Positions 535 through 30,928 of a stretch of DNA of 34,590 bases are shown one piece after another. Origin of the DNA: Candidatus Scalindua sp. (GTDB lineage Bacteria; Planctomycetota; Brocadiia; Brocadiales; Scalinduaceae). Every line of letters starts with the position of its first letter. Position 1 is the stretch's first letter. The stretch is from assembly GCA_021776915.1 (NCBI GenBank), contig JAIQZU010000015.1, positions 1 through 34,590 of the forward strand, in the 5' to 3' direction. A program made the translations under genes and the position numbers. The notes beneath the pieces were generated by a model, which saw nothing but the letters and a program-made list of their open reading frames with translations, made no database searches and was not told the DNA's origin.

Positions 535-762
535 AATTCACCTGAAAAATACTTTTTCTGATTAACTAACATAATTTAAAAACCACTTAGCACATTGTAT
601 AACATCATATCTTATAAAACCTTAAGACAATATTGCATTTGCCGGAAAAGATATTAAACAGCAGTCTATCTTTGTGGCACACATATTGATAATACAAACA
701 TCAGATCAAGCTTATCTCTTTAAAATTACTCCTTAATAATGAAATGAAAGGACTACATCGTT

Positions 763-873
763 ATGTTAAATAAACTATTTACTATCGGGCTTTTTGCTCT
801 TATTGCATGTGTAATTTTTATAGCAGGCATAGGGCATAATATTGCACAGAATATCTTTAGAAGGCAATTATAA
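763..873 (+). CDS. Tiny single-span membrane protein (36 aa), copy 1
   Basis: This short frame begins with ATG preceded by AAAGGA at about 746-751. It encodes a positively charged start (MLNK), about 20 uninterrupted hydrophobic residues, and a C-terminal tail containing HNIAQNIF followed by basic residues. The tail matches the tiny protein at 1151, whose C-terminus is YNIVQNIF. That shared tail, the identical layout and the RBS make it more convincing than its length alone would. Family and function are not recognised. By size it resembles small membrane subunits that attach to larger complexes, but there is no partner gene beside it. A structured stretch (924-1106) follows. Confidence 0.55.
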   Translation: MLNKLFTIGLFALIACVIFIAGIGHNIAQNIFRRQL

Positions 874-923
874 GTTCTAATATCTGGTGCGATGTTGTGA
901 TGAATTCTGGAATTACCCTTTCT

Positions 924-1106
924 GCTGGTTCAGTTATACATTGGCAGGGACGCCAACTTCAAATACAGGAAGATAATAATTGAACCAGCGGTTAATTGTA
1001 ACCTGAAATTCAAGGCACTCGGTATCCTTAACAGGCCAATTCCTGTTAAGGCGGTTTTAGCCCCCACCACCAAATCAGGCAGAAACCGGCCGATGCCTTG
1101 AATTTC
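924..1106 (+). ncRNA. Candidate structured RNA element, copy 1
   Basis: Two folded domains are visible. Domain A is closed by GCTGGTTCA (924-932) with TGAACCAGC (981-989) and contains TTGGC (941-945) paired to GCCAA (952-956). Domain B is closed by a perfect 13-bp helix, 1005-1017 with 1094-1106. Within it are a perfect 10-bp hairpin CCTTAACAGG/CCTGTTAAGG (1026-1035, 1042-1051) and CGGT/ACCG (1020-1023, 1085-1088). A second copy with compensatory changes lies at 1313-1497. It sits 44 nt upstream of the tiny gene at 1151, so it could be its leader or a free RNA. The strand is inferred from the flanking genes. No known riboswitch class was recognised. Confidence 0.5.
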
Positions 1107-1150
1107 CATAAAAAGGTAAACTGCTTTTTTAAGAGACGGGAGAAGATATC

Positions 1151-1246
1151 ATGGCATTAGAAAAATTGGTTTTTATCGGATTTGTTATATTGTCCATCAT
1201 TTTTGTGATAAGCGCATGGTATAACATTGTGCAGAACATTTTCTAG
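1151..1246 (+). CDS. Tiny single-span membrane protein (31 aa), copy 2
   Basis: The ATG is preceded by GGGAG at about 1138-1142. The peptide starts MALEKL, has a hydrophobic segment of about 17 residues, then ISAWYNIVQNIF at the end. The NI-x-QNIF ending is shared with the 36-aa protein at 763, although the DNA is clearly diverged, which suggests selection on the protein. It lies between the two copies of the structured element (924-1106 and 1313-1497). Function is unknown. The topology, with a short N-terminus, one helix and an amphipathic tail, suits a peptide subunit or membrane regulator. Confidence 0.55.
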   Translation: MALEKLVFIGFVILSIIFVISAWYNIVQNIF

Positions 1247-1312
1247 GAAACAACCGCTTGTATGAGCCTGGCTGGTTATTTACCATGTTGAATTTAGAAT
1301 CCATTTATCTGC

Positions 1313-1497
1313 GGGTTCAATCTATTGTCTTACTGCAATGGAGAGACGCGTCCACACTAAACGCTATAATATTATTGAACCAACCGATATTAATGCCTTA
1401 AAATTCAAGGCGGTTGACATCTTTAATGGAAGCCAATTCCTGTTAAAGATGGTTTTTCACCCCCTGCCAAACCAGTCAGGCAACTACCAGCCGATCA
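1313..1497 (+). ncRNA. Candidate structured RNA element, copy 2
   Basis: This diverged copy of the 924-1106 element lies downstream of the second tiny gene. GGTTCAAT (1314-1321) pairs with ATTGAACC (1374-1381). TGGA (1339-1342) pairs with TCCA (1351-1354) around a loop containing the conserved GACGC. CATCTTTAA (1418-1426) pairs with TTAAAGATG (1443-1451), where a C-G pair of copy 1 is replaced by T-A. GTTG (1413-1416) pairs with CAAC (1481-1484) where copy 1 has CGGT/ACCG. The loop sequence GCCAATTCCTGTTAA is shared. The outer 13-bp helix of copy 1 is not preserved here. Confidence 0.45.
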
Positions 1498-1630
1498 CCC
1501 AGAACAATTCCTGAGGTAGATATCGACTCATACCGCAACACTCAGAATAATAAAAAAGTAATCCGTTTTGATGGCATATTCTCATGCATCATAATGAGTC
1601 CACCTTTAACATAAATTGACGATTTGTGTC

Positions 1631-2464: not shown

Positions 2465-3427
2465 GTGATCAAAAGGACAATAGCTTTTATTATTCTTATG
2501 CTGATTAATGCCTTTATCCCGTTGAATAATGTGGATAGTGCAGATGAAATTACCTCAACGGATGTATATTATCTACTGAAATCAATTGATGATTCCCTTG
2601 TAGAGATGCATGAACTGTACACAGAATTTGACAAGGAACAGTTTGCGAATAATAACAAACTCAACAGTAATTTTCAAAGAGCGATAAAATTAGCCGAAGA
2701 GTTTAGCTATCTTCATACTAATGTTTTTGGGCAGTCTTCAATAAGTAGAAAGCAATTACAGAGATTGGAAAAGGAAGCGAATTATGCACATATACAGCCA
2801 GAAGATGTCTACGATGTTATATCAATTATAAAAAATGTTCTTTTGTCAGGAGGTAATTTTATTGAATACAAAGGGGAAAGGAAAGAGAAGACTCCCAGCG
2901 ATGTATATCAAATGATGCGGCAAACAGCATATAGCCATCTCTTAATATTTAATAAAAGAAATCCAATTCCATGGAACAAACCTGAAAGAGTTTATGAGGC
3001 TAATTTTTTTGAAATTTATCCCATGTTAATCAAGATTGTAAGAGAGAAAGGACATGTCCCTGAAATATTTTCATTTCCACAAAAGCCGGCAACAGGAATA
3101 TTACCAAGGGATGTTTATAATGCCGAGATCTATCTTTACGACCTTGTACAAAAGTATTTAACTTCCAAAATGTCGAATTATGAACCTGTTTATATTGTAC
3201 AAACAAAATATCTAACCAAAATTGAGCCTAGTGATGTCTTTGATTTAGCTCAAATTATCATTGCAGAACTTAAAAGTGTTTCAGGAAATCCACAGAAACT
3301 TGATAGACAAACCCTTTCCAGATATTATTCCTGGAAAAGTGATAAACTACATAATATTATTCCCGGAGACGTTTACAATTTAGTGCAATACAATATTTCT
3401 CTGCTGGAAAGTCTGGACTTGAAATAA
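2465..3427 (+). CDS. Secreted protein with repeated P-x-D-V-Y motifs, function unknown
   Basis: The product is a 320-aa protein with a hydrophobic signal sequence (residues about 5-22) and probable export to the periplasm. The rest is organised around a recurring motif P-[ESRG]-D-V-[YF] followed by a helix of about 15 residues. Instances start near residues 32, 112, 144, 173 (degenerate, PERVY), 214, 255 and 300, with spacing of about 30 to 80 residues. The motif probably caps a helix in an all-alpha repeat fold. I do not recognise the family. The start is GTG at 2465, with GAGAG about 10 nt upstream; the ATG at 2463 overlaps it in another frame and stops at once. It is monocistronic and followed by a REP cluster. 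No enzyme motif, haem site or lipobox was seen. Confidence 0.8.
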   Translation: MIKRTIAFIILMLINAFIPLNNVDSADEITSTDVYYLLKSIDDSLVEMHELYTEFDKEQFANNNKLNSNFQRAIKLAEEFSYLHTNVFGQSSISRKQLQRLEKEANYAHIQPEDVYDVISIIKNVLLSGGNFIEYKGERKEKTPSDVYQMMRQTAYSHLLIFNKRNPIPWNKPERVYEANFFEIYPMLIKIVREKGHVPEIFSFPQKPATGILPRDVYNAEIYLYDLVQKYLTSKMSNYEPVYIVQTKYLTKIEPSDVFDLAQIIIAELKSVSGNPQKLDRQTLSRYYSWKSDKLHNIIPGDVYNLVQYNISLLESLDLK

Positions 3428-3440
3428 TCAGGATAATGTC

Positions 3441-3712
3441 TAAACCGTAGGCCGCGTTTCTTACGCGGCATATATCTGTGGGTTGCGTTTTCATACGCGC
3501 CGAACACGATAATGTCGAGTAACCTGCCCGACTTCGCTGTTCAGTGAAGTCGTCGGGTAAGAAACCCGACCTACGCGTGAATCGTGTACTAAACTGTGGG
3601 GTGCGTTTCTTACGCGGCAAACACGAAAATGCCGGGTAGGAAACCCGACATACTCGTGGATCGTGTACTAAACTGTAGGCCGCATTTCTTATGCGGCAAA
3701 TATCCGTAAATT
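3441..3712. repeat. REP cluster upstream of RAYT 1
   Basis: Five to six REP hairpins of both subtypes lie here. They include GGCCGCG-TTTCTTA-CGCGGC near 3451-3468, CGTCGGGT-AAGAA-ACCCGAC near 3551-3571 and GCCGCAT/ATGCGGC near 3679-3697. They directly precede the RAYT gene, which is the usual arrangement of a REP-RAYT locus. Open frames on the minus strand here are translations of the palindromes. Confidence 0.85.
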
Positions 3713-3723
3713 ATAATTGTAAA

Positions 3724-4245
3724 ATGTCAAATTACCGAAGATATTATATTCCAAACTCTATTTATTTTATTACTACGGTTACAAATAAGCGGTTACCTAT
3801 TTTTAAGGATGAGAAGAATATTCAAATCATTTTCACTACTTTAAAAACGGTGAAACATATGAAACCATTTAACTTAATCGCATACTGTTTACTGTACGAC
3901 CATTTCCATTTACTAATCAGTATTGGTGAAGAATGTAAACATAATATAACTAACATCATACACTCTATGAAAAGAAACTTTACGATGAATTACAAAAAAG
4001 GACATAAAATTACACACAAAATTAATCTATGGCAGAAACGATTCTGGGACCACATGATAAGAAATGAAAATGATTTGAAAATACATCTGGATTACATTCA
4101 TTACAATCCGGTTAAACATGGGATAACCTTTAAACCTGAGAATTATAAATATTCCAGTCTTAATATATGGATGAAAAAAGGATTTTATGAAACAGGATGG
4201 GGTCATTCAGAACCTGAAAATATGAAAGATATTGAATTTGAATAA
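3724..4245 (+). CDS. REP-associated tyrosine transposase (RAYT 1, Y1_Tnp family)
   Basis: This 173-aa single-strand DNA transposase belongs to the IS200/IS605-like HUH superfamily. In the known family such enzymes nick and join REP hairpins. The HUH metal-binding pair is visible as D-H-F-H (His60, His62). The catalytic tyrosine is most likely Tyr124 in LDYIHYNPVKHG. The C-terminus has the GWGHSEPE ending typical of RAYTs. The length is complete and no frameshift is seen. I chose the ATG at 3724 over the one at 3691 because the latter lies inside a REP hairpin. The gene is flanked by REP clusters on both sides, its likely substrates. Its AT-rich codon use differs somewhat from that of the second RAYT (12009), so the two are separate lineages. 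Confidence 0.9.
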   Translation: MSNYRRYYIPNSIYFITTVTNKRLPIFKDEKNIQIIFTTLKTVKHMKPFNLIAYCLLYDHFHLLISIGEECKHNITNIIHSMKRNFTMNYKKGHKITHKINLWQKRFWDHMIRNENDLKIHLDYIHYNPVKHGITFKPENYKYSSLNIWMKKGFYETGWGHSEPENMKDIEFE

Positions 4246-4599: not shown

Positions 4600-7500
4600 A
4601 TGAGTGACAAGAGAGAAATTAAAACCCGGAAAAGAATAATCACATACCTTGCCCTTTTTATTGTCCTTTTCCTGGGATATTTTCTAATACGGGGTTCAAA
4701 CTGGCAGGGCAGTAATCATCTCCACACCATAATGGAGACTATGGCCACGTTATTTGCGTTGAGTGTTGGTATAGTGTCAATTGTGCTGTTTTACAACAGA
4801 AAAAATAATATGTTTCTGTTTTTAGGGGTTGGGTTTTTAAGTACTGCATTTCTGGATTGCTACCATACCATTGTGACAAGTGAATTGTTTGTTCGTGTGA
4901 TGCCCTCGACACCTTATTATCTGATACCATGGAGCTGGAATGCATCCCGCCTCTTTCTGTCGGTTCTCATGTGTGTTAGCTGGTGGACGAGTAGGAGAGA
5001 ATTACTGTTAGGAGCTGGCGGAAAGATCAGTGCGAGATTTATCTATATTTTTGTGGGGACTATGACCTTTATAAGTTTATTAATTTTTACCTTAGTCCCA
5101 TTACCGAGGGCATACTATCCGGAACTTATGTTTGGCCGGCCTGAGGAGTTTATTTCTGCCATATTCTTTTTTGTTGCTCTTATTGGCTACCTGTTTAAAG
5201 GTACCTGGAAATATGACACATTTGAACATTGGATAATCCTGTCGCTGATTGTCGGTTTTATGTGTCAGGCCATGTTCATGTCATTCTCACACAGTTTATT
5301 TGACGGGATGTTCGATATGGCCCACTTATTGAAAAAGGTCAGCTATCTATGTGTCCTCACAGGGTTGATGTTAGGTACGTACCGACTGTTCGTAAATGAA
5401 GGGAATTATGCTTCAGAACTAATGGCAGTCAACGAACTGCTGACAAAGAATGTTGCCCAAACCCGTGCCATTCTAGATAATACAGTAGACGGGATAATTA
5501 CCATTGATGAACATGGCATTGTCGAATCTTTCAATCGAGCGGCAGAGCGAATTTTCGGCTACACGGCTGAAGAGGTTATTGGCAACAACATCAAGATGTT
5601 ACAGCCGGAGCCATATCATAGCGAACATGATGGATATCTCCGAAATTATTTGAGTACAGGCATTAAAAAGATTATAGGTATTGGCCGTGAAGTTAAAGGA
5701 TTGCGTAAAGACAGGACAACTTTCCCGCTGGACCTTGCGGTAAGTGAAGTGTTGGTTAATGAAAAACGTATTTTTACCGGAATTATCCGTGACATTACTG
5801 AACGCAAGCAGGCGGAGTCTCAACTTGAGGAGAGGGCTAATCTTCTTGCCATGAGCGCGGATATTGGAAAGGCACTTACGGAAATAAAAGATATTCCGCT
5901 TATGCTCGATAGATGCGCGAATTTCATAGTAAAGCATCTTGATGCGGCATTTGCGCGTATCTGGATATTGAATGAAACGGAACAGATGCTCGAATTACAG
6001 GCAAGCGCCGGTATGTATACCCACATCGACGGCGCACATGGCAGGGTGCCTGTCGGAAAGTTTAAGATAGGCCTTATTGCGCAGGAACGAAAGCCTCATT
6101 TGACGAATGATGTGCAGAATGACCCGCGTGTGGGTGATCATGAATGGGCAAAACGGGAAGGAATGGTATCATTTGCGGGTTATCCTCTGTTGGTTAAAGA
6201 TCACTTAATTGGTGTTATGGCAATGTTTGCGAAGACGTGGTTACCGGATGCGAGTATTAACGCGCTTGGTTCCGTCTCAACACAAATTGCCCTTGGTATA
6301 GAACATCTTCAGGATGAAGCGGATTTGTTAATAGCTAAAGAAAGAGCCGAAACTGCAACTCGTGCCAAGTCAGAATTCCTCGCAAACATGTCTCATGAAC
6401 TCAGAACCCCAATGAATTCCATCATTGGTTTTACTGGCCGCGTAATCAAGAAGGCCGGTGATTTACTCCCGGAGAGACAGCTTAATAATCTTCACACTGT
6501 AGAGAGAAACTCATACCACCTGCTTAATCTTATCAACAGTCTCCTGGACATCTCGAAGGTTGAGGCCGGGAAAATGGAAGTTTTCTCAGAGGAATTCAGT
6601 CTCAACCCTTTGATTACAGAAGTAATAGAACTGACTCAAAGCCTCGCCAGTGATAAAGGACTTGAGACAGTTAATGACATTCCTGATAAAGATATTATCA
6701 TGTATTCAGATAAGACGAAGCTGAAACAGATATTAATCAACCTGATAGGTAATGCCGTCAAGTTTACGGAGAAGGGTAGCATTACAATAAAATGCGGAAT
6801 TGTGAATAAAGAAAAAGCTGACAGTGACGTATTCTTCAAGGCCGGTACAGATTATGTATCACTCAGCATAACAGATACCGGGGCAGGTATGAGCAAAGAT
6901 GAGATGCAGTATATATTCGAACCATTCAAACAGATAGACTCGGCTACGACGAGAAAAGTAGGTGGTACAGGACTGGGGCTTACCATTACGAAGAAATTTA
7001 CCGAACTCCTGAACGGGAAGATAGAGGTAGATAGTGTAAAAGAAAAAGGCACAACCATAACGGTAACCATCCCTGTTACAATGAGTGATGTGAGTAATGT
7101 GTCCAGCGATGAGGGGTTCCTGGAGCCGAAGGAATATGAGCGGCTGAAGGACAGACAAACAGTTCTCTGTATAGACGACAACCCTGAGGTGATTGATCTG
7201 TTACGGGGATATTTGAATGATGAGGGTTATAATGTGATAAGCGCCTTGAGTGGCGACGAGGGGATCAGGAAAGCGAGAGAGTTCAAGCCGTTTGTCATCA
7301 CACTGGATATCATGATGAAGAATAAGAATGGTTGGACGGTGCTTAATGAGCTTAAGAGTGATGGGACGACTAAAAATATTCCCGTCATTATTGTGACGGT
7401 ACTGGAAAACAAAAAAAAGGGCTTTAAACTTGGCGCCAGTGGCTTCATCCAAAAACCTGTTAATCCAGATGTGTTAATAGATTCAATAAAAAATTTATTG

Positions 7501-7899
7501 TCGGTAATGGCTGAGACTGTCCTTGTGGTGGATGACGATCCCGAAGTACGTAGTCTGATACGACAGGTGCTTGAGGATGAAAAAGTAACTGTCAAGACGG
7601 CAGAGAACGGCCTTAAAGTATTGGAAGTTCTTAAGGAAATGACACCAGACCTGATCCTGCTTGACCTGATGATGCCGGAAATGGACGGCTTTGAAGTAAT
7701 CAAGAGGTTAAAGGAAAAAGAGAAATGGGCAGAGATTCCGGTGCTAGTAATAACGGCAAAGACACTTAATGCTGATGAAAGAGTATTCCTGGAACAACGG
7801 GTTAAAACTGTAATCTCAAAAGAGGGCATAAGTTCCAATGCATTCCTGAAAGAGCTGATCGATACCATGAGGGCGATAGGAGGAGTGACGAGAAGATGA
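4600..7899 (+). CDS. Membrane hybrid histidine kinase (7TM-PAS-GAF-HisKA-HATPase-REC-REC)
   Basis: This 1099-aa sensor kinase starts with about seven membrane spans (residues 18-265, MASE-like). A PAS domain follows (about 285-405, ending in DITERK), then a GAF domain (about 410-573). The HisKA domain carries phospho-acceptor His599 in [10 protein letters not shown]. The HATPase domain has its N box at Asn718, DTGAGMS at 759 and GGTGLGLTI at 788. Two receivers follow, with phospho-acceptors Asp903 (TLDIMM) and Asp1022 ([11 protein letters not shown]). All catalytic residues are present. AAGGAA precedes the ATG. The N-terminal membrane module suggests sensing of a membrane-related or redox cue, but the ligand is unknown. 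Phosphate could pass through the attached receivers to the stand-alone receiver at 8162. No HPt domain is encoded nearby. Confidence 0.95.
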
Positions 7900-7943
7900 G
7901 GGATGAAAGAAGATGGACGTAAGACGAGGAGTGAAGTGAAGAC

Positions 7944-8131
7944 GTCGGGTAAGAAACCCGACCTACATGTGAATCGTGTAATAAACTGTGGGCAGCGTTT
8001 CCATACGCGCCAGACATGAGAAAGTCGGGTAAGAAACCCGACCTACGCGTGAATAATTACACCGTGTTTGTTTTGATGTAGGTCGCATTTCTTATGCGAC
8101 AAATGTACTTCTTCGTTCGGGTGGGTGCGAC
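7944..8131. repeat. REP cluster between kinase and receiver genes
   Basis: GTCGGGT/ACCCGAC hairpins lie near 7944-7962 and 8024-8042, followed by a GTAGGTCGCATTTCTTATGCG unit near 8077-8097 and a degenerate half unit. The block 7965-8105 is nearly identical to 4430-4570, which shows recent copying of a REP pair as one unit. Its position between co-directional signalling genes suggests it may act as a transcript-end or stability hairpin. Confidence 0.8.
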
Positions 8132-8161
8132 AATCATAAACGTCTGGTTAGGTAGAAAACC

Positions 8162-8524
8162 ATGAAGACAATACTGGTAGTAGAGGACAACCCTGACAAT
8201 ATGGCCCTTGTTGAGCAGATACTTGAGGACGAGGGTTTTTGTGTTTTAAAGGCCGTTCTGGCTAAAGACGGTATAGCTCTGCTCAAGGAAAGCGCCGTGG
8301 ACATGATCCTTATGGACATTTCTCTTCCTGAGATGAACGGCCTGGAAGCCACAAAAATTATCAAGGCAGGAGAAACCACTAAAGATATTCCTGTTATTGC
8401 CCTGACCGCCCATGCCATGGAGACTGACAGAGAGGAGGCAATATCGGCAGGTTGTGACGGCTACCTTACAAAACCCATCGATGAGGAAGAATTGCTGGAG
8501 ACAATAAAGGATAATGTCGGGTAA
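8162..8524 (+). CDS. Single-domain response regulator (DivK/CheY-like)
   Basis: This 120-aa receiver has acidic residues E8 and D9, phospho-acceptor Asp52 (LMDISLPEMNG), Thr82 in ALTAHA and Lys104 in TKPID. There is no output domain, so it probably works as a phosphate shuttle or protein-interaction switch. It follows the hybrid kinase at 4600 and precedes the receiver-kinase at 8641. The last three residues and the stop (NVG, TAA at 8522-8524) are encoded by the left arm of a REP hairpin (8516-8534), so a REP insertion has redefined its C-terminus without harming the core fold. The RBS is weak (AGGT). Confidence 0.92.
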   Translation: MKTILVVEDNPDNMALVEQILEDEGFCVLKAVLAKDGIALLKESAVDMILMDISLPEMNGLEATKIIKAGETTKDIPVIALTAHAMETDREEAISAGCDGYLTKPIDEEELLETIKDNVG

Positions 8525-8610
8525 GAAACCCGACCTACACGTGGAAGGCGTGATAAACCGTAGGTCGCATTTCTTACCTGCCCGACTTCGTCGTTCGGGC
8601 GGGTGCGACA
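8514..8610. repeat. REP pair overlapping a gene end
   Basis: Arms GTCGGGT (8516-8522) and ACCCGAC (8528-8534) form the first hairpin, which contains the stop codon of the upstream receiver. A degenerate GTAGGTCGCATTTCTTACCTGCC unit follows, ending near 8610. Confidence 0.8.
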
Positions 8611-8640
8611 GATGATGTCTTTGTATCAAATAAGGAGAAT

Positions 8641-9738
8641 ATGATGAAAATACTTGCAGTAGACGATGAGCGGGATAATGTAGAGCTTCTCTGTCAGATT
8701 TTAGAAGATGATTACGAGATTATTACGGCATATAATGGCGCTGATTGTATAAAACTGGCAAAGGAACAACATCCTGACATAATAATCCTTGACGTCATGA
8801 TGCCGGAGATGGACGGCTATGAGGTCTTAAAAAGATTACTGGAGGATGAAAGCACCCGCGAGATTCCGGTGATATTCCTGACCGCTCGTTATAAGGATAC
8901 TGACAGGATAGTCAAAGGTCTGGAGAGTGGAGCATTTGATTATATTACCAAACCGATCAACGATGAGGTATTACTGGCAAAGGTTAATACTGCGGCACGC
9001 ATAAAGAAGGCGGAAGATGAGGTCAAGAGACAAAAGGCAGAACTTGAGAAAGCGCAGGAAGAACTTATTCTTAAAGAACGTCTGGCAGCACTGGGGCAAT
9101 TAATAGCCACGGTCAGTCATGAAATTCGCAACCCGCTCGGGACCGTGCAAAACGCCGTATTCTCAATTGGTGAAGCAGTTAAGCACAACAATACAGATCT
9201 GATAGACAGCTCACTGAAACTCGCCGAACGCAATATCAAACGCTGTGACAGGATCATCAATGAACTGCTGGACTTTACGCGCATTCAGAAAATAGAGCTT
9301 GAAAAGGTGGAAATAGACAGTTGGCTCGGTGGTTTGCTTGATGAATATGAACTACCAGAAAACATTGAATGTGTGAGGGATTTGCATTCCGGTATTGATC
9401 TTCAGATAGATCGTGAATATTTGCGCCGCGCTATCAACAATGTTGTCACCAATGCAGTTCAGGCTATACAGGATGAAAACTCGAATGGTAATCAGTTAAA
9501 TGTGAAATCAGTAGCTAACGGGGAGCGGTTAGAACTGCACTTTATCGATAATGGCCCCGGAATACCTGAGGAGATTCTGGAGAAAATCTTTGAGCCCCTG
9601 TTCAGTACCAAAGGGTTTGGAGTGGGTCTGGGTATGCCGGTTATCAAGGATATCATGGAAGAACACAAGGGTGGAGTCGAGATTAAGAGTAAAGCCGGGC
9701 AGGGTACAACTGTTATACTATGGTTGCCAATACAATAA
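8641..9738 (+). CDS. Receiver-first histidine kinase (REC-coiled coil-HisKA-HATPase)
   Basis: This soluble 365-aa protein begins with a receiver (phospho-acceptor Asp51 in ILDVMMPEMDG, Lys104 in TKPIN). A charged coiled coil follows (about 121-150), then HisKA with His160 (SHEIRNPLG), then an HATPase with NNVVTNAVQAI, DNGPGIP and GFGVGLG motifs. With the receiver upstream of the kinase, the protein is probably an intermediate in a relay, with kinase activity set by phosphorylation of its own receiver. There is no membrane segment. AAGGAG stands 5-6 nt before the ATG at 8641; the adjacent ATG at 8644 is also possible. It lies in line with the kinase at 4600 and the receiver at 8162. Confidence 0.93.
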   Translation: MMKILAVDDERDNVELLCQILEDDYEIITAYNGADCIKLAKEQHPDIIILDVMMPEMDGYEVLKRLLEDESTREIPVIFLTARYKDTDRIVKGLESGAFDYITKPINDEVLLAKVNTAARIKKAEDEVKRQKAELEKAQEELILKERLAALGQLIATVSHEIRNPLGTVQNAVFSIGEAVKHNNTDLIDSSLKLAERNIKRCDRIINELLDFTRIQKIELEKVEIDSWLGGLLDEYELPENIECVRDLHSGIDLQIDREYLRRAINNVVTNAVQAIQDENSNGNQLNVKSVANGERLELHFIDNGPGIPEEILEKIFEPLFSTKGFGVGLGMPVIKDIMEEHKGGVEIKSKAGQGTTVILWLPIQ

Positions 9739-9740
9739 AA

Positions 9741-9823
9741 GCTGGGTAGGAGCCGTCTCCTGACGGCGATCGCCAACGGGAGTTGGCTCCTACCAAAACA
9801 TTGAAATTCCTCATACATTAAAC
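9741..9823. repeat. Hairpin repeat GTAGGAGCC/GGCTCCTAC plus 23-bp module
   Basis: GTAGGAGCC (9746-9754) and GGCTCCTAC (9785-9793) form a perfect 9-bp stem. It is followed by the module TTGAAATTCCTCATACATTA (9801-9820), which also appears beside other hairpin families at 116, 243, 16033 and 23268. It fills the gap between two receiver-containing genes and ends at the start codon of the next. Confidence 0.7.
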
Positions 9824-9824
9824 T

Positions 9825-10220
9825 ATGAAGAATCCGATTTGTATATTTATCGTGGATGACGATCATGATTTTGCCAAAAGCATGGCTGACATTATGGAGC
9901 TGCATGGCTATGATGTACAAACGGCTCATAGCGGTGAAGAGGCGGTAAGTAAATTCCGTGATCAGGATTTCGACGTTACTTTTATGGACGTAAAGATGCC
10001 GGGTAAAAATGGCGTTGAAAGTTTTCTGGAAATTCGCAAATTGAAACCAGATGCAAAGGTGGTGATGATAACTGCCTACAGCGTAGAACAACTGCTTGAA
10101 AAGGCTATTCGAAGCGGCGCTTGTGGAATTCTCCACAAACCTTTTGACATGGAAAAAGCAACTAAGATGATAGAGAAACTAAGGGGCCGCAACGGTTCTA
10201 TAAAAAATAACATAAAATAA
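9825..10220 (+). CDS. Single-domain response regulator
   Basis: This 131-aa receiver has an acidic triad DDD (11-13), phospho-acceptor Asp55 (FMDVKMPGKNG), Thr83 and Lys105 (HKPFD), and a basic C-terminal tail but no DNA-binding domain. The stop codon overlaps the ATG of the following kinase (TAATG, one base shared), which indicates translational coupling and probable partnership with it. The ATG follows a repeat module and has no clear Shine-Dalgarno sequence. Confidence 0.92.
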   Translation: MKNPICIFIVDDDHDFAKSMADIMELHGYDVQTAHSGEEAVSKFRDQDFDVTFMDVKMPGKNGVESFLEIRKLKPDAKVVMITAYSVEQLLEKAIRSGACGILHKPFDMEKATKMIEKLRGRNGSIKNNIK

Positions 10221-11758
10221 TGAAGGCGAAAGAAACTAGACAATTTAAAAGCCCTGATGACAAGCGTATTCTGATTGTTGATGATGATGAGGATTTTGTC
10301 ATAAGCCTGGTGGATATTCTGGAACCGCTTGGTTATGTGGTTGAAACTGCGTATAACACAAAGGATGCCCGTAAGAAAATCCAGAATTTCGACGCACATC
10401 TGGCCCTTCTGGATATCCGTTTGGGCCACACCAATGGTGTTAACTTGATTACTAAGTTCAAGTCGGCAAATCCTGATATTCTCTGTGTGATGATGACTGC
10501 CTATACAGATATAGACGCCTCTATCCAGGCACTTAAGGAAGGTTCCTACGACTATCTAAGGAAACCGATAGAAACACATGATCTGTTGGCAACAATAAAC
10601 AGGTGTTTCGAAAGGATTCATCTGGAGGATGAAAAATCTACTGCAATAAGAGAATTACGAGAAAGCGAGAACAAATTCCGAAGACTGTCACAGGAGTTCC
10701 ATACCCTGCTGGACGCTATTGATGATCCAATGATTCAGATTTCCCCCGAGTTTAAAATATTATGGGCAAACCGCAGCGCCGCGACCTTCTCCGGAAAAGA
10801 CACTTCCAGCCTGCAAGGCCAGTATTGTTATAAATTGTGGTTTAAACGCTCCGGCCCTTGTGATGAGTGTCCTGCAATAGCAAAATGTTTTCAAACAGGA
10901 GAAACAGGGAGCATTCAATTCTCAACCCCTGATGGCCGATTTTGCAACTTAAAGGCTTTTCCTGTAAAGAACGAAAGAGGAGAAGTGCAAAATGTAATAG
11001 AATTATATCGTGATATAACGAAAGAGACGATTATGCAGGAGGAATCAACGAGAGCCGCACAGATGGCGACACTGGGAGAACTGGCAGCAAGTGTAGCGCA
11101 TGAAATAAACAACCCGGTATATGGTATTACCATGTGCGCCCAATCATTACTTGCGGAAACCAGAAACGGTAAAATTAAAGATCATGATGTTGTCTTGATG
11201 ATTTTGAAGGAATCGGACCGTATTGCTAATGTGACGAGATGCCTTCTCTCCGCTGTCAGAGATTCTGAAGATACCAAGTGTCTTTGTGATATCAATGGAA
11301 TACTCTCCGACACTCTTACATTAACCGGCGTAATAATACAAAAAGAAGGTATTATTTTAAGGATACAAGTACCCAGAGACCTGCCCTTAATCCTTGCACA
11401 CCCCCAACGGATTCAACAAGTCTTCCTGAATATCCTTAATAATGCAAGGTACACCCTGAACAAAAAGTATCCTGATACAGACGAAAACAAGATCATTGAG
11501 ATCACAGGCAGGGAGATAATGATAGATGACAGCCCGTGTAATCAAATTATATTTTATGATAGAGGTATGGGGATAGCTGCTGATAAAATAGACAAGATAT
11601 TGAATCCGTTCTTTACCACTAAACCTGTGGGAAAAGGAACAGGTCTGGGCCTAAGCATCAGCAATAAGATTATCAAGGGCCATGATGGCAAGATAGAGAT
11701 AGATAGCGTTGAAGGAGAGTTTACGAAGATAATTATCACTCTTCCGGTAGCAAGGTAG
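10220..11758 (+). CDS. Receiver-first histidine kinase with Cys-containing PAS domain
   Basis: This 512-aa cytoplasmic protein has a receiver (Asp65 in LLDIRLG, Lys115), a short coiled coil and a PAS domain (about 158-268). HisKA follows, with His294 in SVAHEINNPV, then an HATPase (NILNNARYTL, DRGMGI, GKGTGLGLSI). The PAS contains a tight cysteine group, C214-x2-C217-x5-C223 (CDECPAIAKC), plus Cys203 and Cys242. Such clusters in PAS domains often suggest redox or metal sensing, but the cofactor cannot be read from sequence. Translation is coupled to the receiver at 9825. Downstream lies a RAYT duplication, so transcription into the sigma-54 activator gene (12771) may have been interrupted. 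Confidence 0.93.
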   Translation: MKAKETRQFKSPDDKRILIVDDDEDFVISLVDILEPLGYVVETAYNTKDARKKIQNFDAHLALLDIRLGHTNGVNLITKFKSANPDILCVMMTAYTDIDASIQALKEGSYDYLRKPIETHDLLATINRCFERIHLEDEKSTAIRELRESENKFRRLSQEFHTLLDAIDDPMIQISPEFKILWANRSAATFSGKDTSSLQGQYCYKLWFKRSGPCDECPAIAKCFQTGETGSIQFSTPDGRFCNLKAFPVKNERGEVQNVIELYRDITKETIMQEESTRAAQMATLGELAASVAHEINNPVYGITMCAQSLLAETRNGKIKDHDVVLMILKESDRIANVTRCLLSAVRDSEDTKCLCDINGILSDTLTLTGVIIQKEGIILRIQVPRDLPLILAHPQRIQQVFLNILNNARYTLNKKYPDTDENKIIEITGREIMIDDSPCNQIIFYDRGMGIAADKIDKILNPFFTTKPVGKGTGLGLSISNKIIKGHDGKIEIDSVEGEFTKIIITLPVAR

Positions 11759-11764
11759 TGTTTT

Positions 11765-12008
11765 GGGTTGTAGTGAGCCGGATTCGCTTAAGGGTATGGA
11801 TATTGAATAATTTAACGATGGGTCTGCTCCGCTTGACCCATCCTACAGAATACGCAATATGTATATATGGCAGAAACACGAGTACGTAGGTTGGGCCCGC
11901 CTGCCAGTCTCCGCCGTTCGGACGGGTACCTGTTCAGGCAGAGAGTGAAGAAATTCGTAGGTTGGGTCAAGCGAAGCGGATCCAACAAAATTAATCTAAT
12001 ACCCAAAA
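11765..12008 (+). repeat. Direct repeat, upstream copy, with remnant RAYT 3' end
   Basis: About 240 bp here is nearly identical to 12500-12770. It begins with the last codons of a RAYT gene (encoding CSEPDSLKGMDIE and a stop, about 11770-11809), then has a GGGTC/GACCC-type hairpin region and a GTAGGTTGGG palindrome block. It ends in CAACAAAATTAATCTAAT just before an ATG. The only trace of the first RAYT copy is its 3' end, so this is the scar of a tandem RAYT duplication that lost most of one gene. Confidence 0.8.
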
Positions 12009-12545
12009 ATGGAATATCGTAGAGTATGGTATCCTGGTGGTTGCTTCTTTTTCACGGTAGTTACTTACAAAAGGCGACCGATCCTGACGATACCGAAAAA
12101 CACCTCGCGATTACGAAAGGCATTTGTACACGTAAAACTTAAGCGGTCTTTTGACATTGCAGGAATTGTTGTATTACCTAACCATTTACATTGTATATGG
12201 CAATTGCCTGAAAACGACTATGATTTTGCAACAAGGTGGCGTTTGATTAAACACTTCTTCAGCCGTTCTTGTATAGGCATTGAAGAGGTTCAAAACCAAT
12301 CACGAATAAGTAAAAAAGAAAAGACGGTATGGCAGAGACGTTATTGGGAACATGTAATTCGTGATGAAAAGGATTGGCAACGGCACATGGATTATATTCA
12401 TTACAACCCTGTTAAACATGGTCTTGTGGAGAGGCCGGTTGACTGGCCATATAGTTCATTCGAGAGAGCAGTCAAGAATGGATTGTATGAAAGAGATTGG
12501 GGTTGTAGTGAGCCGGATTCGCTTAAGGGTATGGATATTGAATAA
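12009..12545 (+). CDS. REP-associated tyrosine transposase (RAYT 2)
   Basis: This intact 178-aa Y1 transposase has the HUH pair N-H-L-H (His59, His61) in VVLPNHLHCIW. Catalytic Tyr129 lies in HMDYIHYNPVKHG, and the WQRRYWEH segment and GCSEPDS C-terminal signature are present. It shares these motifs with RAYT 1 (3724) but belongs to a different subgroup and is flanked by a different palindrome family (GTAGGTTGGG...). The gene lies between two copies of the same 240-bp flank. It separates the kinase at 10220 from the regulator at 12771. Confidence 0.9.
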   Translation: MEYRRVWYPGGCFFFTVVTYKRRPILTIPKNTSRLRKAFVHVKLKRSFDIAGIVVLPNHLHCIWQLPENDYDFATRWRLIKHFFSRSCIGIEEVQNQSRISKKEKTVWQRRYWEHVIRDEKDWQRHMDYIHYNPVKHGLVERPVDWPYSSFERAVKNGLYERDWGCSEPDSLKGMDIE

Positions 12546-12770
12546 TTTAACGATGGGTCTGCTCCGCTTGACCCATCCTACAGAATACGCAATACGTATA
12601 TATGGCAGAAACACGAGTATGTAGGTTGGGCCCGCCTGCCAGTCTCCGCCGTTCGGACGGGTACCTATTCAGGCAGAGAGTGAAGAAATTCGTAGGTTGG
12701 GTCAATGTCCTCGGCGCTTTTTGTCCGGGGAAGCGAAGCGGACCCAACAAAATTAATCTAATAAACAAAA
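12500..12770 (+). repeat. Direct repeat, downstream copy, with inserted CTCGGCGC element
   Basis: This is the second copy of the 11765-12008 repeat, beginning inside the 3' end of RAYT 2. It differs by a few substitutions and by an insertion of about 25 bp (near 12704-12729, GTCCTCGGCGCTTTTTGTCC). The inserted sequence also occurs at 16071-16095 and, with inverted copies, at 21127-21150 and 21249-21272. The repeat ends with the same AAAATTAATCTAAT sequence directly before the start codon of the sigma-54 activator. Confidence 0.8.
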
Positions 12771-14483
12771 ATGGATAAGTCTAAAATCCTCATAATCGAC
12801 GACGAGCCAATTATTACTTCTATGCTGGAAAGATTTCTTTCGCAGGAAGGATACGATGTTGCTACCGCTAATGATATCAAAGAAGCCAATACCAGGATGT
12901 CCCATAAAGATTTTGATTTGTTAATTTCTGACATTATCCTGGGTAGTAACACGGGAATCGACCTCTTACGGGAAATTAAAGCGAAGAAGTTGAGCTGCCC
13001 CGTGATCTTTATCACCGGAAATCCCAATGTTGAAACAGCATCCGAGGCCGTTCGCCTGGGCGCTTACGACTACTTATCAAAACCGGTAGAATTTGAGATA
13101 CTACTACGCACTGTTAAGAAAGCCTTACAACACAAGGCGCTTATTGACGAAAATACTAAATACCGGTCAAACCTTGAGGCTATTTTCAAGAGTATTGATG
13201 AGGCAATAATTACAGTGGACAAGGATTTAGTGATACTTGAATTCAATAAAGCAGCCGAAAAAATATGTGGATTTCCGGGTAATGCTAAAGGACAAAAGTA
13301 TGAATCTTTTCTGGATGGCTGCTGTGGAATAAGCCTTGAAGCTCTCAAAGAGACAATCAACACAAGACTGCCTGCAGAAAGAGGCCGTTTCGAATGTAAT
13401 AAATCAGGCCAACCCAAACGTGTTCTCAGTGTAACCACATACCCACTCTTTGACTACCAGGAGAAATTTAACGGTTGTGTCATGGTAATGAAGGATGATA
13501 CCAGGCTCGTCGACCTGGAGTGTGATCTGCACGAACGTCAGCAACTACAGAATATCATAGGCAAAAGCGCCGGGATGCAAAAGGTTTATTCTTTCATTGA
13601 AGATCTCGCCGACATTCAAACAACCGTCTTGATTACAGGAGAGAACGGCACAGGAAAAGGACTGGTAGCAGAAGCGCTGCATTACCACAAAATGGGTATT
13701 AAAAAGCCTCTTGTCGTAGTAAATTGCACCGCCTTATCTGACAATCTGCTCGAAAGTGAATTGTTTGGACACGTTAAGGGCGCATTTACAGGGGCTGTCA
13801 GTGATAGAATCGGCAGATTCCAGAAAGCAGATGGAGGGACTATCTTCCTGGATGAGATAGGAGATATATCAAATATAATGCAGCTACGCTTATTAAGAGT
13901 GTTACAGGAAATGGAGTTTGAGCGTGTGGGCGATTCAACACCCATCAAAGTAAACGTCAGGATCATTGCCGCCACAAATCAGGACATCCCCAAAAGGGTA
14001 AGACAGGGAAAGTTCCGTGAAGACCTGTATCACAGACTGAGAGTTGTGGAATTGAATGTGCCGCCACTCAGGGAGAGACGCGAAGACATTCCACTCCTGG
14101 TAGAGCATTTTATAGTAAAGTTCAACAAAAAATTCAATAAGAACATTAAATCCATATCTGCAGATGTTCAAAGGATATTCATGGATTACAAATGGCCCGG
14201 AAACGTCAGGGAACTCCAGCACACTATGGAATATGCGTTCGTACTCTGTAAAGAAACCATAATCACTAAAGACTGCCTGCAAACTGATTTTCAAGACTCC
14301 AGCGCCGCAGATACCCAATCAATAAAAAAGAAGAAACACTATGACAAACAGGCAATTATTCAGGCATTGAAAGAAACCGGTTGGAACAAGGCCAAGGCAG
14401 CGCGACTACTGGGTATAGCCCGCAGAACTATCTACCTGAAAATAAATGAGTATGATATTGTGGAGAATGTAGCAGATTCATAA
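12771..14483 (+). CDS. Sigma-54-dependent response regulator (REC-PAS-AAA-Fis, NtrC family)
   Basis: This 570-aa transcription activator has a receiver (Asp54, Lys104) and a PAS-like domain (about 130-245) that most NtrC relatives lack. The AAA domain carries Walker A GENGTGKG (290-297), the sigma-54 contact loop GAFTGA (337-342) and Walker B GGTIFLDEIGD (355-365). A Fis-type helix-turn-helix lies near the C-terminus (NKAKAARLLGIARRTIY). All motifs needed for sigma-54 activation are present. Walker A ends in G rather than the usual E, which is unlikely to matter. It is the only DNA-binding regulator in the island and a plausible end point for the phosphate relay. The start codon directly follows a repeat, so its native promoter may have been displaced. 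Confidence 0.95.
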   Translation: MDKSKILIIDDEPIITSMLERFLSQEGYDVATANDIKEANTRMSHKDFDLLISDIILGSNTGIDLLREIKAKKLSCPVIFITGNPNVETASEAVRLGAYDYLSKPVEFEILLRTVKKALQHKALIDENTKYRSNLEAIFKSIDEAIITVDKDLVILEFNKAAEKICGFPGNAKGQKYESFLDGCCGISLEALKETINTRLPAERGRFECNKSGQPKRVLSVTTYPLFDYQEKFNGCVMVMKDDTRLVDLECDLHERQQLQNIIGKSAGMQKVYSFIEDLADIQTTVLITGENGTGKGLVAEALHYHKMGIKKPLVVVNCTALSDNLLESELFGHVKGAFTGAVSDRIGRFQKADGGTIFLDEIGDISNIMQLRLLRVLQEMEFERVGDSTPIKVNVRIIAATNQDIPKRVRQGKFREDLYHRLRVVELNVPPLRERREDIPLLVEHFIVKFNKKFNKNIKSISADVQRIFMDYKWPGNVRELQHTMEYAFVLCKETIITKDCLQTDFQDSSAADTQSIKKKKHYDKQAIIQALKETGWNKAKAARLLGIARRTIYLKINEYDIVENVADS

Positions 14484-14485
14484 TC

Positions 14486-14534
14486 TGTGCAATTATACAC
14501 TTATGTGCATTCTTCACTTATGTGCAATTGCACA
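14486..14534. promoter_or_regulatory. Cluster of TGTGCA palindromes
   Basis: TGTGCAATTATACA (14486-14499), a half site in TATGTGCAT (14503-14510) and a perfect 14-bp palindrome TGTGCA-AT-TGCACA (14521-14534) directly follow the sigma-54 activator gene. An inverted half site TTGCACATAAGT lies at 14913-14924. The layout suits activator or repressor binding ahead of the receiver genes at 15004. A similar palindrome lies at 486-499. The remaining sequence to 14994 (about 450 bp) is AT-rich, with no gene and no repeat recognised. Confidence 0.45.
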
Positions 14535-15003
14535 CCTTTATTGTCTTTTAAACCTCCGATTACATCAAAATTTTGATACAAATAAAATTTTTTCTCACAC
14601 ACTGCCCGTGCCCTCATAAAGCTATCTTTCACCATCGAATATCAGTATCACTATAGCTGTTTTATCCTGCCAGGACTCTCACCATTAAACACTTTACAAA
14701 CTTATAAACTATTATAATACATGCCTTTAGCCACAATTTCCATACATTTATTTTTTATGTTTCCATGGCAATATTCTTCAGTATTTTAAAGAGCCACTCA
14801 TTAATCTATGTTAAACACATTGCGATATTAAATTTCCTTAATTCTCCAGTCTGAAGCTGAAAACTTAGCAACATTTTTAAAATGGCATTTATTTTGATAT
14901 ATAATCATCTAGTTGCACATAAGTTGAGTAATTCAGGTTACACAATATTTTCGTTGGAAGTACATCAGGCGTAAACTGTACTGATAAAAAGGAGATGTTT
15001 GTT

Positions 15004-15414
15004 TTGGGAGTAAAGCAGATTTTAATTATTGAAGACGATCCGGATCACGCAGAGTTAATTATTGAAGGACTCGATGTAGAAGACATCAAAAAGAAAGTCA
15101 TCTTAATGAAAGATGGACAGGAGGTAATAGATTATTTTCAGGAATCTGTTGTTAAATGGGAGGGAAAGATACAATATATTATAAGCCTGATTATACTGGA
15201 CCTTAATATACCTAAAGTTCATGGTATGGATGTACTGAAGTTTTTGAAGAATAATCCAATGTATAGTTCGATTCCGGTAATTATTCTTTCAACAAGTAGT
15301 GACCATAAAACCATTAAGAAGGCGTATGAAAATGGAGTTGACGGTTATATTATAAAGCCACTTTCCTATGATGATTTTGTTGAAAAATTAAAGATACTGA
15401 AAGGATTCTGCTGA
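15004..15414 (+). CDS. Single-domain response regulator, tandem paralogue 1
   Basis: This 136-aa receiver is of the Rcp1-like type, with an insertion before the phosphorylation strand. It has IEDDPDHAELI near the N-terminus, phospho-acceptor Asp66 (LDLNIPKVHGMD), the LSTSS segment and Lys118. The TTG at 15004 is preferred over the ATG at 14995 because GGAG (14991-14994) abuts that ATG but sits 9 nt from the TTG. The paralogue at 15469 also begins with TTG in the same GTTTGTTTTGG context. It is first of three tandem paralogues that probably arose by gene duplication. No output domain or adjacent kinase is present. Confidence 0.9.
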   Translation: MGVKQILIIEDDPDHAELIIEGLDVEDIKKKVILMKDGQEVIDYFQESVVKWEGKIQYIISLIILDLNIPKVHGMDVLKFLKNNPMYSSIPVIILSTSSDHKTIKKAYENGVDGYIIKPLSYDDFVEKLKILKGFC

Positions 15415-15468
15415 ATACTTCTACCTCGCCAGGCAAAAGGCCTCAACGAAAAGAGAGAAGGGTTTGTT

Positions 15469-15882
15469 TTGGAAGAAAAGACGATATTAATTGCTGAAGA
15501 TGACCCGGACCATGCAGAGTTAATTATTGATGAACTTAATACCGGGGATATTAGAAAGGAAATTATATTAAAGAAAAATGGCCAGGAGGTAATAGATTTT
15601 TTTCTGGAAACAGGCATTAATAGCTGTGGTGAAAAAGGGCTTCAAATTGACTTAATCGTGCTTGACCTTAATCTGCCAAAAATCCATGGTATGGACGTCC
15701 TGAAAATTCTAAAGAATGACCCTAAGCATAAGTCAATACCTATAGTAGTGTTCTCAACAAGTTTTGATCCTAAAACTATTTCAGAGGTGCGGAAGAATGG
15801 GGCCAACGGTTACATAACAAAGCCTGCTTCTTTTAAAGAGTTCGAGGAGAATATAAAGTTGTTGAAGGAATACATCTCTTAG
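15469..15882 (+). CDS. Single-domain response regulator, tandem paralogue 2
   Basis: This 137-aa receiver is closely related to its neighbours. It has AEDDPDHAELIID, phospho-acceptor Asp66 (LDLNLPKIHGMD), the FSTSF segment and Lys118 (TKPAS). Translation starts at TTG 15469 with GAAGGG about 7 nt upstream. It lies 54 nt after paralogue 1 and is probably co-transcribed with it. The unusual start codon could keep expression low. Confidence 0.9.
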   Translation: MEEKTILIAEDDPDHAELIIDELNTGDIRKEIILKKNGQEVIDFFLETGINSCGEKGLQIDLIVLDLNLPKIHGMDVLKILKNDPKHKSIPIVVFSTSFDPKTISEVRKNGANGYITKPASFKEFEENIKLLKEYIS

Positions 15883-15918
15883 ATTGGATTCCAACATCTA
15901 CTCTATATTCAATCAAGT

Positions 15919-16050
15919 TAAGTCGCTATCACGACAAAATTCCTCGACTCCGCTCTCTCCGAGTCAGAAGCTCTACTGAGCCGGAAGCGGAATGACGTCA
16001 CACTGAGCGGAGTCGAAGTGTTATCAACATTGTTGAATTTCCTATGCATC
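15919..16050. repeat. Family B composite repeat
   Basis: AAGTCGCTATCACGAC is followed by CTCGACTCCGCTC and its inverse GAGCGGAGTCGAAG (about 16005-16018), then by the TTGAATTTCCTATGCAT module at 16033. The modular order matches 116-262. It sits between receiver paralogues 2 and 3. Confidence 0.75.
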
Positions 16051-16062
16051 CAGTTAGCAACA

Positions 16063-16116
16063 ATGGGTCAATGTCCTCGGCGCTTTTTGTCCGGGGAAGC
16101 GATGCGGACCCAACAT
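16063..16116. repeat. Family C palindrome with CTCGGCGC insert
   Basis: TGGGTC (16064-16069) and GACCCA (about 16107-16112) flank the sequence GTCCTCGGCGCTTTTTGTCC. The same block occurs in the repeat at 12700-12750. It lies directly upstream of receiver paralogue 3. Confidence 0.7.
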
Positions 16117-16138
16117 AATTTATATAAAGAGTTAACCC

Positions 16139-16612
16139 ATGAATGAACCGAAAATTAATATCCTGCTTATCGAAGATGACCCGGACCACGCAGACCTGAT
16201 ACTTGACATATTCGATACAGAGGATGTCAATAGTGATGTTATCTTGATGAAGGATGGGCAGGAAGTCATAGATTATCTTCAAGGAACAGATTACCCTGCC
16301 GGGACAGTACAATCTGATATTAAGGGTGACAATATAAGACACTCTCAAATTGACCTGATCATATTAGACCTTAATCTGCCCAAGATTAATGGCATGGATG
16401 TACTGAAATCTCTAAAGGGAAACTCAAAGTGTTCTTCAATCCCTGTAGTTATTTTATCAACAAGCTCTGATCAAAATACTATTTCAGAAGCATACAGAAA
16501 CGGAGCAAATGGTTATGTAACAAAACCAATGTCTTATGATGAATTCGTAGACAAGATAAAGATGCTGAGGCTGTATTGGTCTGATACTAATACGTTACCG
16601 CTACAAGTATAA
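16139..16612 (+). CDS. Single-domain response regulator, tandem paralogue 3
   Basis: This 157-aa receiver has IEDDPDHADLI, phospho-acceptor Asp77 (LDLNLPKINGMD), LSTSSD and Lys129 (TKPMS). It is longer than its two upstream relatives, with about ten extra residues around 52-68 in the insertion before the phosphorylation strand, and with an extra C-terminal tail. Two repeats (15919-16116) separate it from paralogue 2, so it may have its own promoter. The ATG start has no strong RBS. Confidence 0.9.
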   Translation: MNEPKINILLIEDDPDHADLILDIFDTEDVNSDVILMKDGQEVIDYLQGTDYPAGTVQSDIKGDNIRHSQIDLIILDLNLPKINGMDVLKSLKGNSKCSSIPVVILSTSSDQNTISEAYRNGANGYVTKPMSYDEFVDKIKMLRLYWSDTNTLPLQV

Positions 16613-16621
16613 CTTTAAAAA

Positions 16622-16755
16622 CAATCCTTCGACTCCGCTCAGGATGATGTCACACTGAGCGGAGTCGAAGTGCTAACAACAAGTTAGACAAATGTTTGGT
16701 AGAGTGGATGACCCGGGCGGGAGCGATGTCACACTGAGCGGAGTCGAAGTGTAAT
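16622..16755. repeat. Family B repeats (one full, one half)
   Basis: A short full hairpin (CCTTCGACTCCGCTC ... GAGCGGAGTCGAAG, about 16625-16670) is followed about 60 bp later by a lone right half, ACACTGAGCGGAGTCGAAGT (about 16731-16750). Confidence 0.75.
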
Positions 16756-16765
16756 CAATAATATT

Positions 16766-17148
16766 ATGAAAAACCAGACAAGCAAAATTCTGATAGCCGA
16801 TGACGATAATACCGTTTTACTGGTGACCACAGATTTGTTACGCAGGGAGGGATATGAGTGTTACTACGCCCCTGATACAAAAACTGCTATAGAGACACTG
16901 AAATCTGTAAAGTTTGATCTCTTGATTTCAGACATTAATATGCCCGGAAACAACGAATTGGATCTGATAAAAAACTTCCGGAAATTGCAGAAGGGCTACC
17001 AGTTATACTCATAACCGGCGGACAATTCTCCAACACACAGATACAATCCATGAAACCTCATGTAACAGCCTGCCTGAACAAACCACTTGATTTTGAAGAG
17101 CTACTGATGCATGTCAGAAGTTCTATTAAAGTCAATACCAATCCTTGA
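16766..17148 (+). pseudogene. Response regulator broken by a frameshift
   Basis: The first frame encodes a receiver N-terminus with DDD (12-14) and phospho-acceptor Asp56 (ISDINMPGNN), then stops at 17014. From about 16981 the sequence continues in a different frame with the missing half: EIAEGLPVILITGG, then NKPLDFEELL containing the conserved lysine, ending at TGA 17146-17148. Joining the two restores a normal receiver of about 127 aa. A single lost base near 16971-16981 (AAAAAC or CCGG) explains it. It may be a real mutation, a sequencing error or, less likely, a recoding site. Confidence 0.85.
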
Positions 17149-17197
17149 TAGAAACTACCTCAGGAATGAGGAGCGACATCTACCCATTAAAATACTT

Positions 17198-17226
17198 TTT
17201 GCAAAAACTCCCTTTTCAAGTATAAT
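17198..17226 (+). promoter_or_regulatory. Possible promoter for the binding-protein operon
   Basis: TTTGCA (17198-17203) and TATAAT (17221-17226) are 17 bp apart. The -10 box is perfect but the -35 box is weak. It would start transcription about 165 nt ahead of the gene at 17397. Nothing else is seen in the gap 17149-17396. Confidence 0.35.
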
Positions 17227-18533: not shown

Positions 18534-18539
18534 AACATA

Positions 18540-30878: not shown

Positions 30879-30928
30879 AAATATGCCCTTTAAAATGCAG
30901 GTTCTCGATAAGCCGGGGAATACCACCA

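Follow-up and report, generated by a model that had tools for sequence, protein, structure and literature searches.

The closest described counterparts of the locus analyzed here are found among several kinds of bacterial regulatory RNA. Known CsrA sponges (e.g., RsmY/RsmZ and CsrB/CsrC, which are under GacA control) carry several hexaloops. The high-affinity consensus site of CsrA/RsmE is an ANGGAX hexaloop placed directly on a stem (PMC4005645). In the luxO-qrr and qseF/glrR-glmY systems, a sigma-54-dependent RNA gene lies beside the gene for its own AAA+ response regulator, with activator palindromes upstream (PMC10162802, PMC8745638). Riboswitches and attenuators are structured leaders with conserved loops and tandem copies, as illustrated by the HMP-PP riboswitch, a terminator-embedded aptamer (PMC6478431). 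Finally, in 5' UTR stabilizers of the ompA type, the mRNA of an outer-membrane protein has a stable stem close to its 5' end. The locus compared with these systems below holds more than the earlier note on this DNA had described, namely two RNA families outside Rfam, two small proteins that are subject to selection and a regulon of the sigma-54 type.

The window, i.e., the whole 34,590-nt stretch of DNA that was analyzed, is contig C7 of a 3.79-Mb draft genome of a Candidatus Scalindua relative (anammox bacteria). A blastn comparison of positions 740-1120 with 39 relatives (Brocadiales) resolved the folded part of the locus into two conserved blocks, A (~922-990) and B (~1002-1110), each of which is also found alone. 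Both RNAs sit between two small membrane-protein ORFs and on the same strand as these, in the order ORF1, RNA A, RNA B, ORF2, decayed A2 and decayed B2, preceded by a putative control region:

486-499, unstranded: distal palindromic activator site (UAS-like), TGTGCCACGGCACA, from an alignment of 12 loci
520-533, unstranded: proximal palindromic activator site, CGTGTCATGGCACA, 34 bp from the distal site, from an alignment of 12 loci
675-690, plus strand: sigma-54-like promoter, TGGCACACATATTGAT (GG-N10-GA), with a TGGCAYNNNNTTTTGAT-like element occupying this position in every aligned A locus
763-873, plus strand: ORF1, a 36-aa predicted single-span membrane protein (NIAQNIF), Shine-Dalgarno sequence AAAGGA
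922-990, plus strand: RNA A, outer stem CTGCTGGTTCAGT/ATTGAACCAGCGG around the hairpin UUGGC[AGGGAC]GCCAA (CsrA-site-like), plus ACAGGA
1002-1110, plus strand: RNA B, copy 1 (B1), a three-way junction P1/P2/P3 with a C-rich P3 loop; leader of ORF2, ~40 nt before its ATG
1151-1246, plus strand: ORF2, a 31-aa predicted single-span membrane protein (NIVQNIF), Shine-Dalgarno sequence GGGAG
1305-1391, plus strand: A2, a degenerate second copy of RNA A (R1, 47.6 bits; fold z -3.16), GGA hexaloop lost
1397-1512, plus strand: B2, a degenerate second copy of RNA B (R3, 75.7 bits; fold z -2.55), part of the outer stem lost

The two ORFs, both with the NI-x-QNIF ending, and a related folded sequence after each of them are present as the earlier note had reported. 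Its "same folded element", however, holds only insofar as related folds follow both ORFs: these are really two separate RNAs, found apart elsewhere, and of the loops that it took for constant parts of one element, the GACGC loop is part of A and the GCCAATTCCTGTTAA loop part of B. Nor are the two cassettes equivalent, since the second copies are degenerate (fold z of -6.4 for A1 vs. -3.2 for A2, and -8.6 for B1 vs. -2.5 for B2). The second cassette looks like a lineage-specific duplication of the ORF-A-B unit; the tandem arrangement is found in genomes G000 and G002 and, in part, in G003 and G005.

In the reading that we favor, with a probability of roughly 55%, sigma-54 controls the locus as a unit, RNA A serves to titrate CsrA or to recruit it, and RNA B is a new cis-regulatory leader, of the riboswitch/attenuator type. 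The whole region would form one transcription unit, switched on by an NtrC-type response regulator that is encoded just upstream and would bind the two palindromes ~155 bp before the sigma-54 promoter. The transcript would contain, in this order, small membrane protein 1, A, B, small membrane protein 2 and the decayed copies of A and B. Within its terminator-like stem, A would present a CsrA-binding-type ANGGAX hexaloop on a stem of its own, and, once the activator fires, it may titrate CsrA or else put the transcript under CsrA control. B would act in cis as an attenuator, of the riboswitch or protein-binding type, setting the expression of the gene behind it. The geometry of promoter and activator sites, the joint occurrence of activator and A, the structures and covariation of the RNAs, the position of B as a leader and the coding nature of the ORFs are shown computationally, whereas we infer the binding of this activator to these sites, the binding of CsrA, the signal that B would sense and the direction of regulation.

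Both ORFs show purifying selection that is confined to the correct frame, with between-species pN/pS values of 0.19 (ORF1) and 0.34 (ORF2) in their own frames vs. 0.73-1.83 in the remaining frames. Because of these own-frame values, ORF1 and ORF2 are probably real proteins, each with one predicted hydrophobic stretch. Searches of Pfam and NCBIfam gave no family match for either of them, and their homologs are confined to these loci, with a 41-aa family member at one G008 locus, a truncated remnant in G014 and one weak match in G001. Elsewhere in the window, a 320-aa protein (2465-3427) without a Pfam match contains about six repeats of an (S/P)xDVY-like motif, and one minus-strand ORF of 1152 aa (27471-30929) seems, as judged by eye, to combine a molybdopterin oxidoreductase with a NifS-like cysteine desulfurase. 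The window also contains REP-like palindromes GTCGGGTAAGAAACCCGACCTACG (at 44-71, 89-111, 1907-1934, 2078-2105 and 2174-2241), a Y1-type transposase (3691-4245, Pfam match) and an ORF (12009-12545) similar by resemblance to such a transposase.

The control region has a constant geometry. Upstream of all primary A copies, two TGTGCCATGGCACA-like palindromes lie 33-34 bp apart and are followed, after ~155 bp (155 bp in the window, from the proximal palindrome at 520 to the promoter at 675), by TGGCAYNNNNTTTTGAT, a -24/-12 element whose GG-N10 spacing is that of sigma-54 promoters; the palindrome pair and the sequence TGGCAYN5TTTTGAT line up in 12 loci. The usual -12 element of sigma-54 promoters is GC, and the GA or GT found here is weaker than canonical. 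The palindromes recur across Scalindua genomes (a reversed control gave ~0 matches), and at loci without A a promoter is again found 153-158 bp after them (11 observed vs. 0.10 expected). These other palindrome-controlled loci include those of PilZ, hemerythrin and receiver proteins and of a MarR_EPS-like regulator; CstA was considered as a further target and rejected, as it lies upstream of the palindromes and not downstream. A 46-49-bp composite operator, containing TGTGNCATGNCACA twice and often a third palindrome in the middle, is present in 21 of the 62 Brocadiales genomes, the control giving no match (at 486-533 of the window, in G004, G008, G022 and in other Brocadiales genomes), and, judged by this sequence pattern, looks like the mark of a putative order-wide sigma-54 activator regulon.

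At most A loci, the palindromes are immediately preceded by the gene for a sigma-54 activator of the NtrC type with receiver, PAS, AAA+ and Fis domains. Its cluster at an identity of at least 80% comprises exactly the 11 genomes with A and none of the six without A. The activator is a fragment at a contig end in G004, its ortholog and A are on different contigs in G014, and in the genome that contains the window it is found at one end, the last part, of contig C8, the first bases of which overlap the window start in reverse complement. The break between C8 and C7 falls inside a REP-like repeat. Within the window, sensor kinases and response regulators are densely clustered at 4600-21000, and a second NtrC-type activator (12771-14483) has 57% identity to the companion activator of RNA A.

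RNA A occurs in 11 of the 17 Scalinduaceae genomes. Each of these has a single syntenic locus, except for G008 with two; G000 and G002 carry degenerate extra copies as well. Across four relatives, A shows 93% identity vs. 80% for the sequence before it and 67% for that after it, and it stays constant while the leader between promoter and A ranges from 113 to 385 nt across loci. The outer stem has 13 bp in the consensus and 16 in the minimum-energy structure of the window copy, which also contains the AGGGAC hexaloop; the fold z is -6.43 for this copy and -5.1 and -5.4 for those of relatives. A coding function was rejected: the spacing of the conserved blocks varies (13, 16, 18, 20 nt), with every frame broken. 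The stems contain 16 G-U cells vs. four A-C cells, which argues that A is an RNA on this strand. Loci L017, L019 and L020 and short (41-43-nt) R1 matches were not accepted as copies of A, being chance hits or plain terminator-like hairpins, and the matches outside Scalindua (Cyclobacteriaceae, Bacillota and others) were obtained with a 25-base degenerate pattern that can match by chance.

The hexaloop of A fits the high-affinity ANGGAX form, and all 12 primary copies retain an inner A[G/A]GGA loop, with a weaker closing stem in G014; this is the only canonical hexaloop in A, the ACAGGA motif being partly paired. A(N)GGA motifs number 56 in the putative transcripts vs. 28 after shuffling, in sequences that are not independent. 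CsrA is encoded above the cut-off in 17 of 17 genomes, whereas no Hfq exceeds the cut-off in any of them. Given this loop and this distribution, CsrA appears to be the most likely partner of A, if A acts via a known RNA-binding protein. A resembles RsmY/RsmZ and CsrB/CsrC in bearing the hexaloop directly on a stem, in the presence of CsrA in all genomes and in an expression apparently set by a response regulator via upstream palindromes. It differs from them in its predicted control by sigma-54 and an NtrC-type activator instead of GacA, in one canonical hexaloop as opposed to many, in having no sequence match to them and in the small ORFs that share its transcript in some species.

It is possible, although we consider it rather unlikely, that A is simply the transcription terminator or a 3' stabilizer of the unit and that its GGA hexaloop is fortuitous. 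The outer stem (CTGCTGGTTCAAT/ATTGAACCAGCAG) does fit terminator-like hairpins that recur in Scalindua (L160, L032), and TTTTTT follows some A copies; on the other hand, the loop is retained in every primary copy while the other hairpins of this sequence are devoid of it, and no strict terminator was found in the window. The recurrent hairpin, TTGCTGGTTCAATC..GATTGAACCAGCA(TTTTTT), whose stem sequence is common with the outer stem of A, is observed at L160 (1799-1839), L032 (1501-1542), L042, L049 and L158.

Turning to the second element of our favored reading, covariance models identified 27 copies of RNA B in 14 of the 17 Scalinduaceae genomes. None was found outside Scalinduaceae in the 39-genome Brocadiales search, and among 246 genomes drawn across the phylum, a draw that lists no other Scalinduaceae, the R3 model detected B in no genome but that of the window. 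The structure consists of P1, a variable P2 and a P3 with a conserved C-rich loop (CCCCUCC..GUCUGAUA), and B1 folds with a z of -8.60. Across the 27 copies, 18 of 27 pairs are changed on both sides, G-U outnumbers A-C by 60 to 21, and the covariation score is 0.298 vs. 0.158 for shuffled and 0.02-0.08 for slid alignments, with none of 500 shuffles reaching any of five measures; the alignment was fitted to the structure, and these slid and shuffled controls weigh more than the percentages. The earlier note had taken covariation between two copies as a sign of a functional RNA: two copies alone are insufficient as proof, and it is the wider family that provides it. The change from CCTTAA/TTAAGG to CTTTAA/TTAAAG on which it relied is real and lies in helix P2, whereas CGGT/ACCG vs. 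GTTG/CAAC does not represent a family-wide pairing, the 27 copies showing TCGG:CCGA in P1 and CGGTT:AACCG in P3. Its suggestion of an undescribed riboregulator of no recognized class is borne out by the strong covariation, by the conserved genomic context and by Rfam, where neither the gathering threshold on the whole window nor E<=5 on nine loci returned anything relevant for A or B. The 3' part of B (AGUCAGGCAnnnACCNGCC) was considered as a cobalamin B12 box and dropped, Rfam giving no cobalamin match.

Most B copies are 5' leaders on the same strand as the gene behind them. B precedes a BBP2-type beta-barrel porin gene in 11 genomes (the assignment being by Pfam for one representative and by sequence recognition for the rest), and at most of these loci a sigma-54 promoter is found 65-79 nt before B, at a pattern density of 0.22 per kb over the searched loci. 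It likewise precedes a Rieske gene (Rieske/bc1; G003, G011 and G013, with tandem pairs in G003 and G011), a hemerythrin gene (G004) and, at window-type loci, ORF2; in these three classes the start codon follows B at a distance of ~40-55 nt. For five copies, no gene is clearly recognizable directly behind B (B2 of the window, the second copy in G002, two in G003 and one in G011), and an A-B copy lies ~200 nt before argG in G014. The expectation that every RNA copy would neighbor a short NI-x-QNIF frame is thus contradicted on both counts: the gene behind B is in most cases one for a porin, a Rieske protein or hemerythrin, and A mostly occurs without an ORF of this kind nearby.

A cis-acting attenuator is favored for B because the Rieske, hemerythrin and ORF2 copies stand immediately before the start codon. 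With riboswitches and attenuators such as HMP-PP (PMC6478431), B shares the structured leader, the conserved loops, the tandem copies and, in part of its copies, a closing stem directly before a U-run; unlike the known riboswitches, it has a three-way junction of its own. A T run of at least five follows P1 in 10 of the 27 copies (background 4.6%). To our knowledge, the set of genes behind B (porin, bc1, hemerythrin) is unlike that of any riboswitch class. Pairing of the C-rich loop with the Shine-Dalgarno sequence (mean z -0.8) is suggestive in porin leaders; we make no claim of anti-Shine-Dalgarno pairing, which is absent in window-type and Rieske leaders.

At the porin loci, a stand-alone sRNA is a serious rival, because a sigma-70-like TTGACT, mostly accompanied by a -10-like hexamer, follows B. 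This sequence is located directly after B and before the porin gene at eight of the 11 porin loci (L161, L166, L073-L076, L084 and L189), in most cases with a TAATAA/TAAATA-like hexamer at 15-17 bp, an arrangement from which a porin gene with two promoters (sigma-54 before B and sigma-70-like after it) appears possible. Extended to B in general, the idea of a short trans-acting sRNA, transcribed from its own sigma-54 promoter and ending at P1/U-run while the gene behind has its own promoter, accounts for the sigma-54 promoter ~70 nt before B at porin loci, for this post-B motif and for the several U-runs after P1. It nevertheless seems unlikely to us, as the spacing of the Rieske, hemerythrin and ORF2 copies from the start codon is too tight for a second promoter, Hfq is above the cut-off in none of the 17 genomes and B1 of the window has no U-run. 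Improbable, too, is a role of B as a 5' stabilizer or protein-binding element of abundant mRNAs, comparable to the ompA leader and without a switch. The position of B near the 5' end of porin transcripts, its very stable P1 (fold z -8.6) and its occurrence with different gene families would suit such a role; the P3 loop, however, is conserved more than stability requires, the tandem copies before Rieske genes look like tandem switches and, unlike ompA-type stabilizers, B combines a conserved loop sequence with several unrelated downstream genes.

Quite improbable is that A is a sigma-54-dependent sRNA akin to Qrr or GlmY, encoded beside its own activator and pairing with target mRNAs or acting as a decoy for a processing factor. 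The architecture is as in luxO-qrr and glmY-qseF, including the upstream palindromes, but A is a different RNA with no Rfam match (known Qrr/GlmY families included), Hfq is again above the cut-off in no genome, and A is linked to small membrane proteins and to RNA B. A type I toxin-antitoxin pair, brought up by the earlier note and suggested by tiny hydrophobic ORFs adjoining a structured RNA, is highly improbable, as the RNAs lie on the ORF strand and not antisense (G-U bias), occur in most genomes without the ORFs and belong to a single orthologous locus with sigma-54-type control. Its other proposal, a mobile REP- or MITE-like element, draws on the dispersal of B (up to five copies per genome) and on the REP-like repeats and Y1 transposase of the window, and is just as remote, given that B copies are not scattered but occupy orthologous leader positions before the same genes in one orientation with compensatory stem changes, that the REP sequences are unrelated to A and B and that most genomes have A at a single syntenic locus.

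Overall, the marine anammox bacterium Scalindua probably uses a so far unknown RNA layer of gene control, since one uncatalogued RNA (B) also fronts genes of the respiratory chain and of outer-membrane channels. By estimate, roughly half of the nitrogen lost from the oceans is due to anammox bacteria (PMC7438415), and our literature search found no regulatory RNA described for these organisms. In Kuenenia, ammonium limitation strongly induces a BBP2 porin (PMC7438415) and, by analogy, the porin with a B leader is a natural candidate for nutrient-responsive control. A more far-reaching and, in our estimate, still doubtful version of the proposal would make B a new anammox riboswitch class that senses an anammox metabolite or redox signal and controls the bc1 complex, porin and hemerythrin, with A as a one-family CsrA sponge. 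RNA B fronts core energy and transport genes, and both A and B are short, concrete sequences for testing; if this version is true, the B riboswitch and the A sponge would jointly constitute an RNA-level circuit for anammox energy metabolism.
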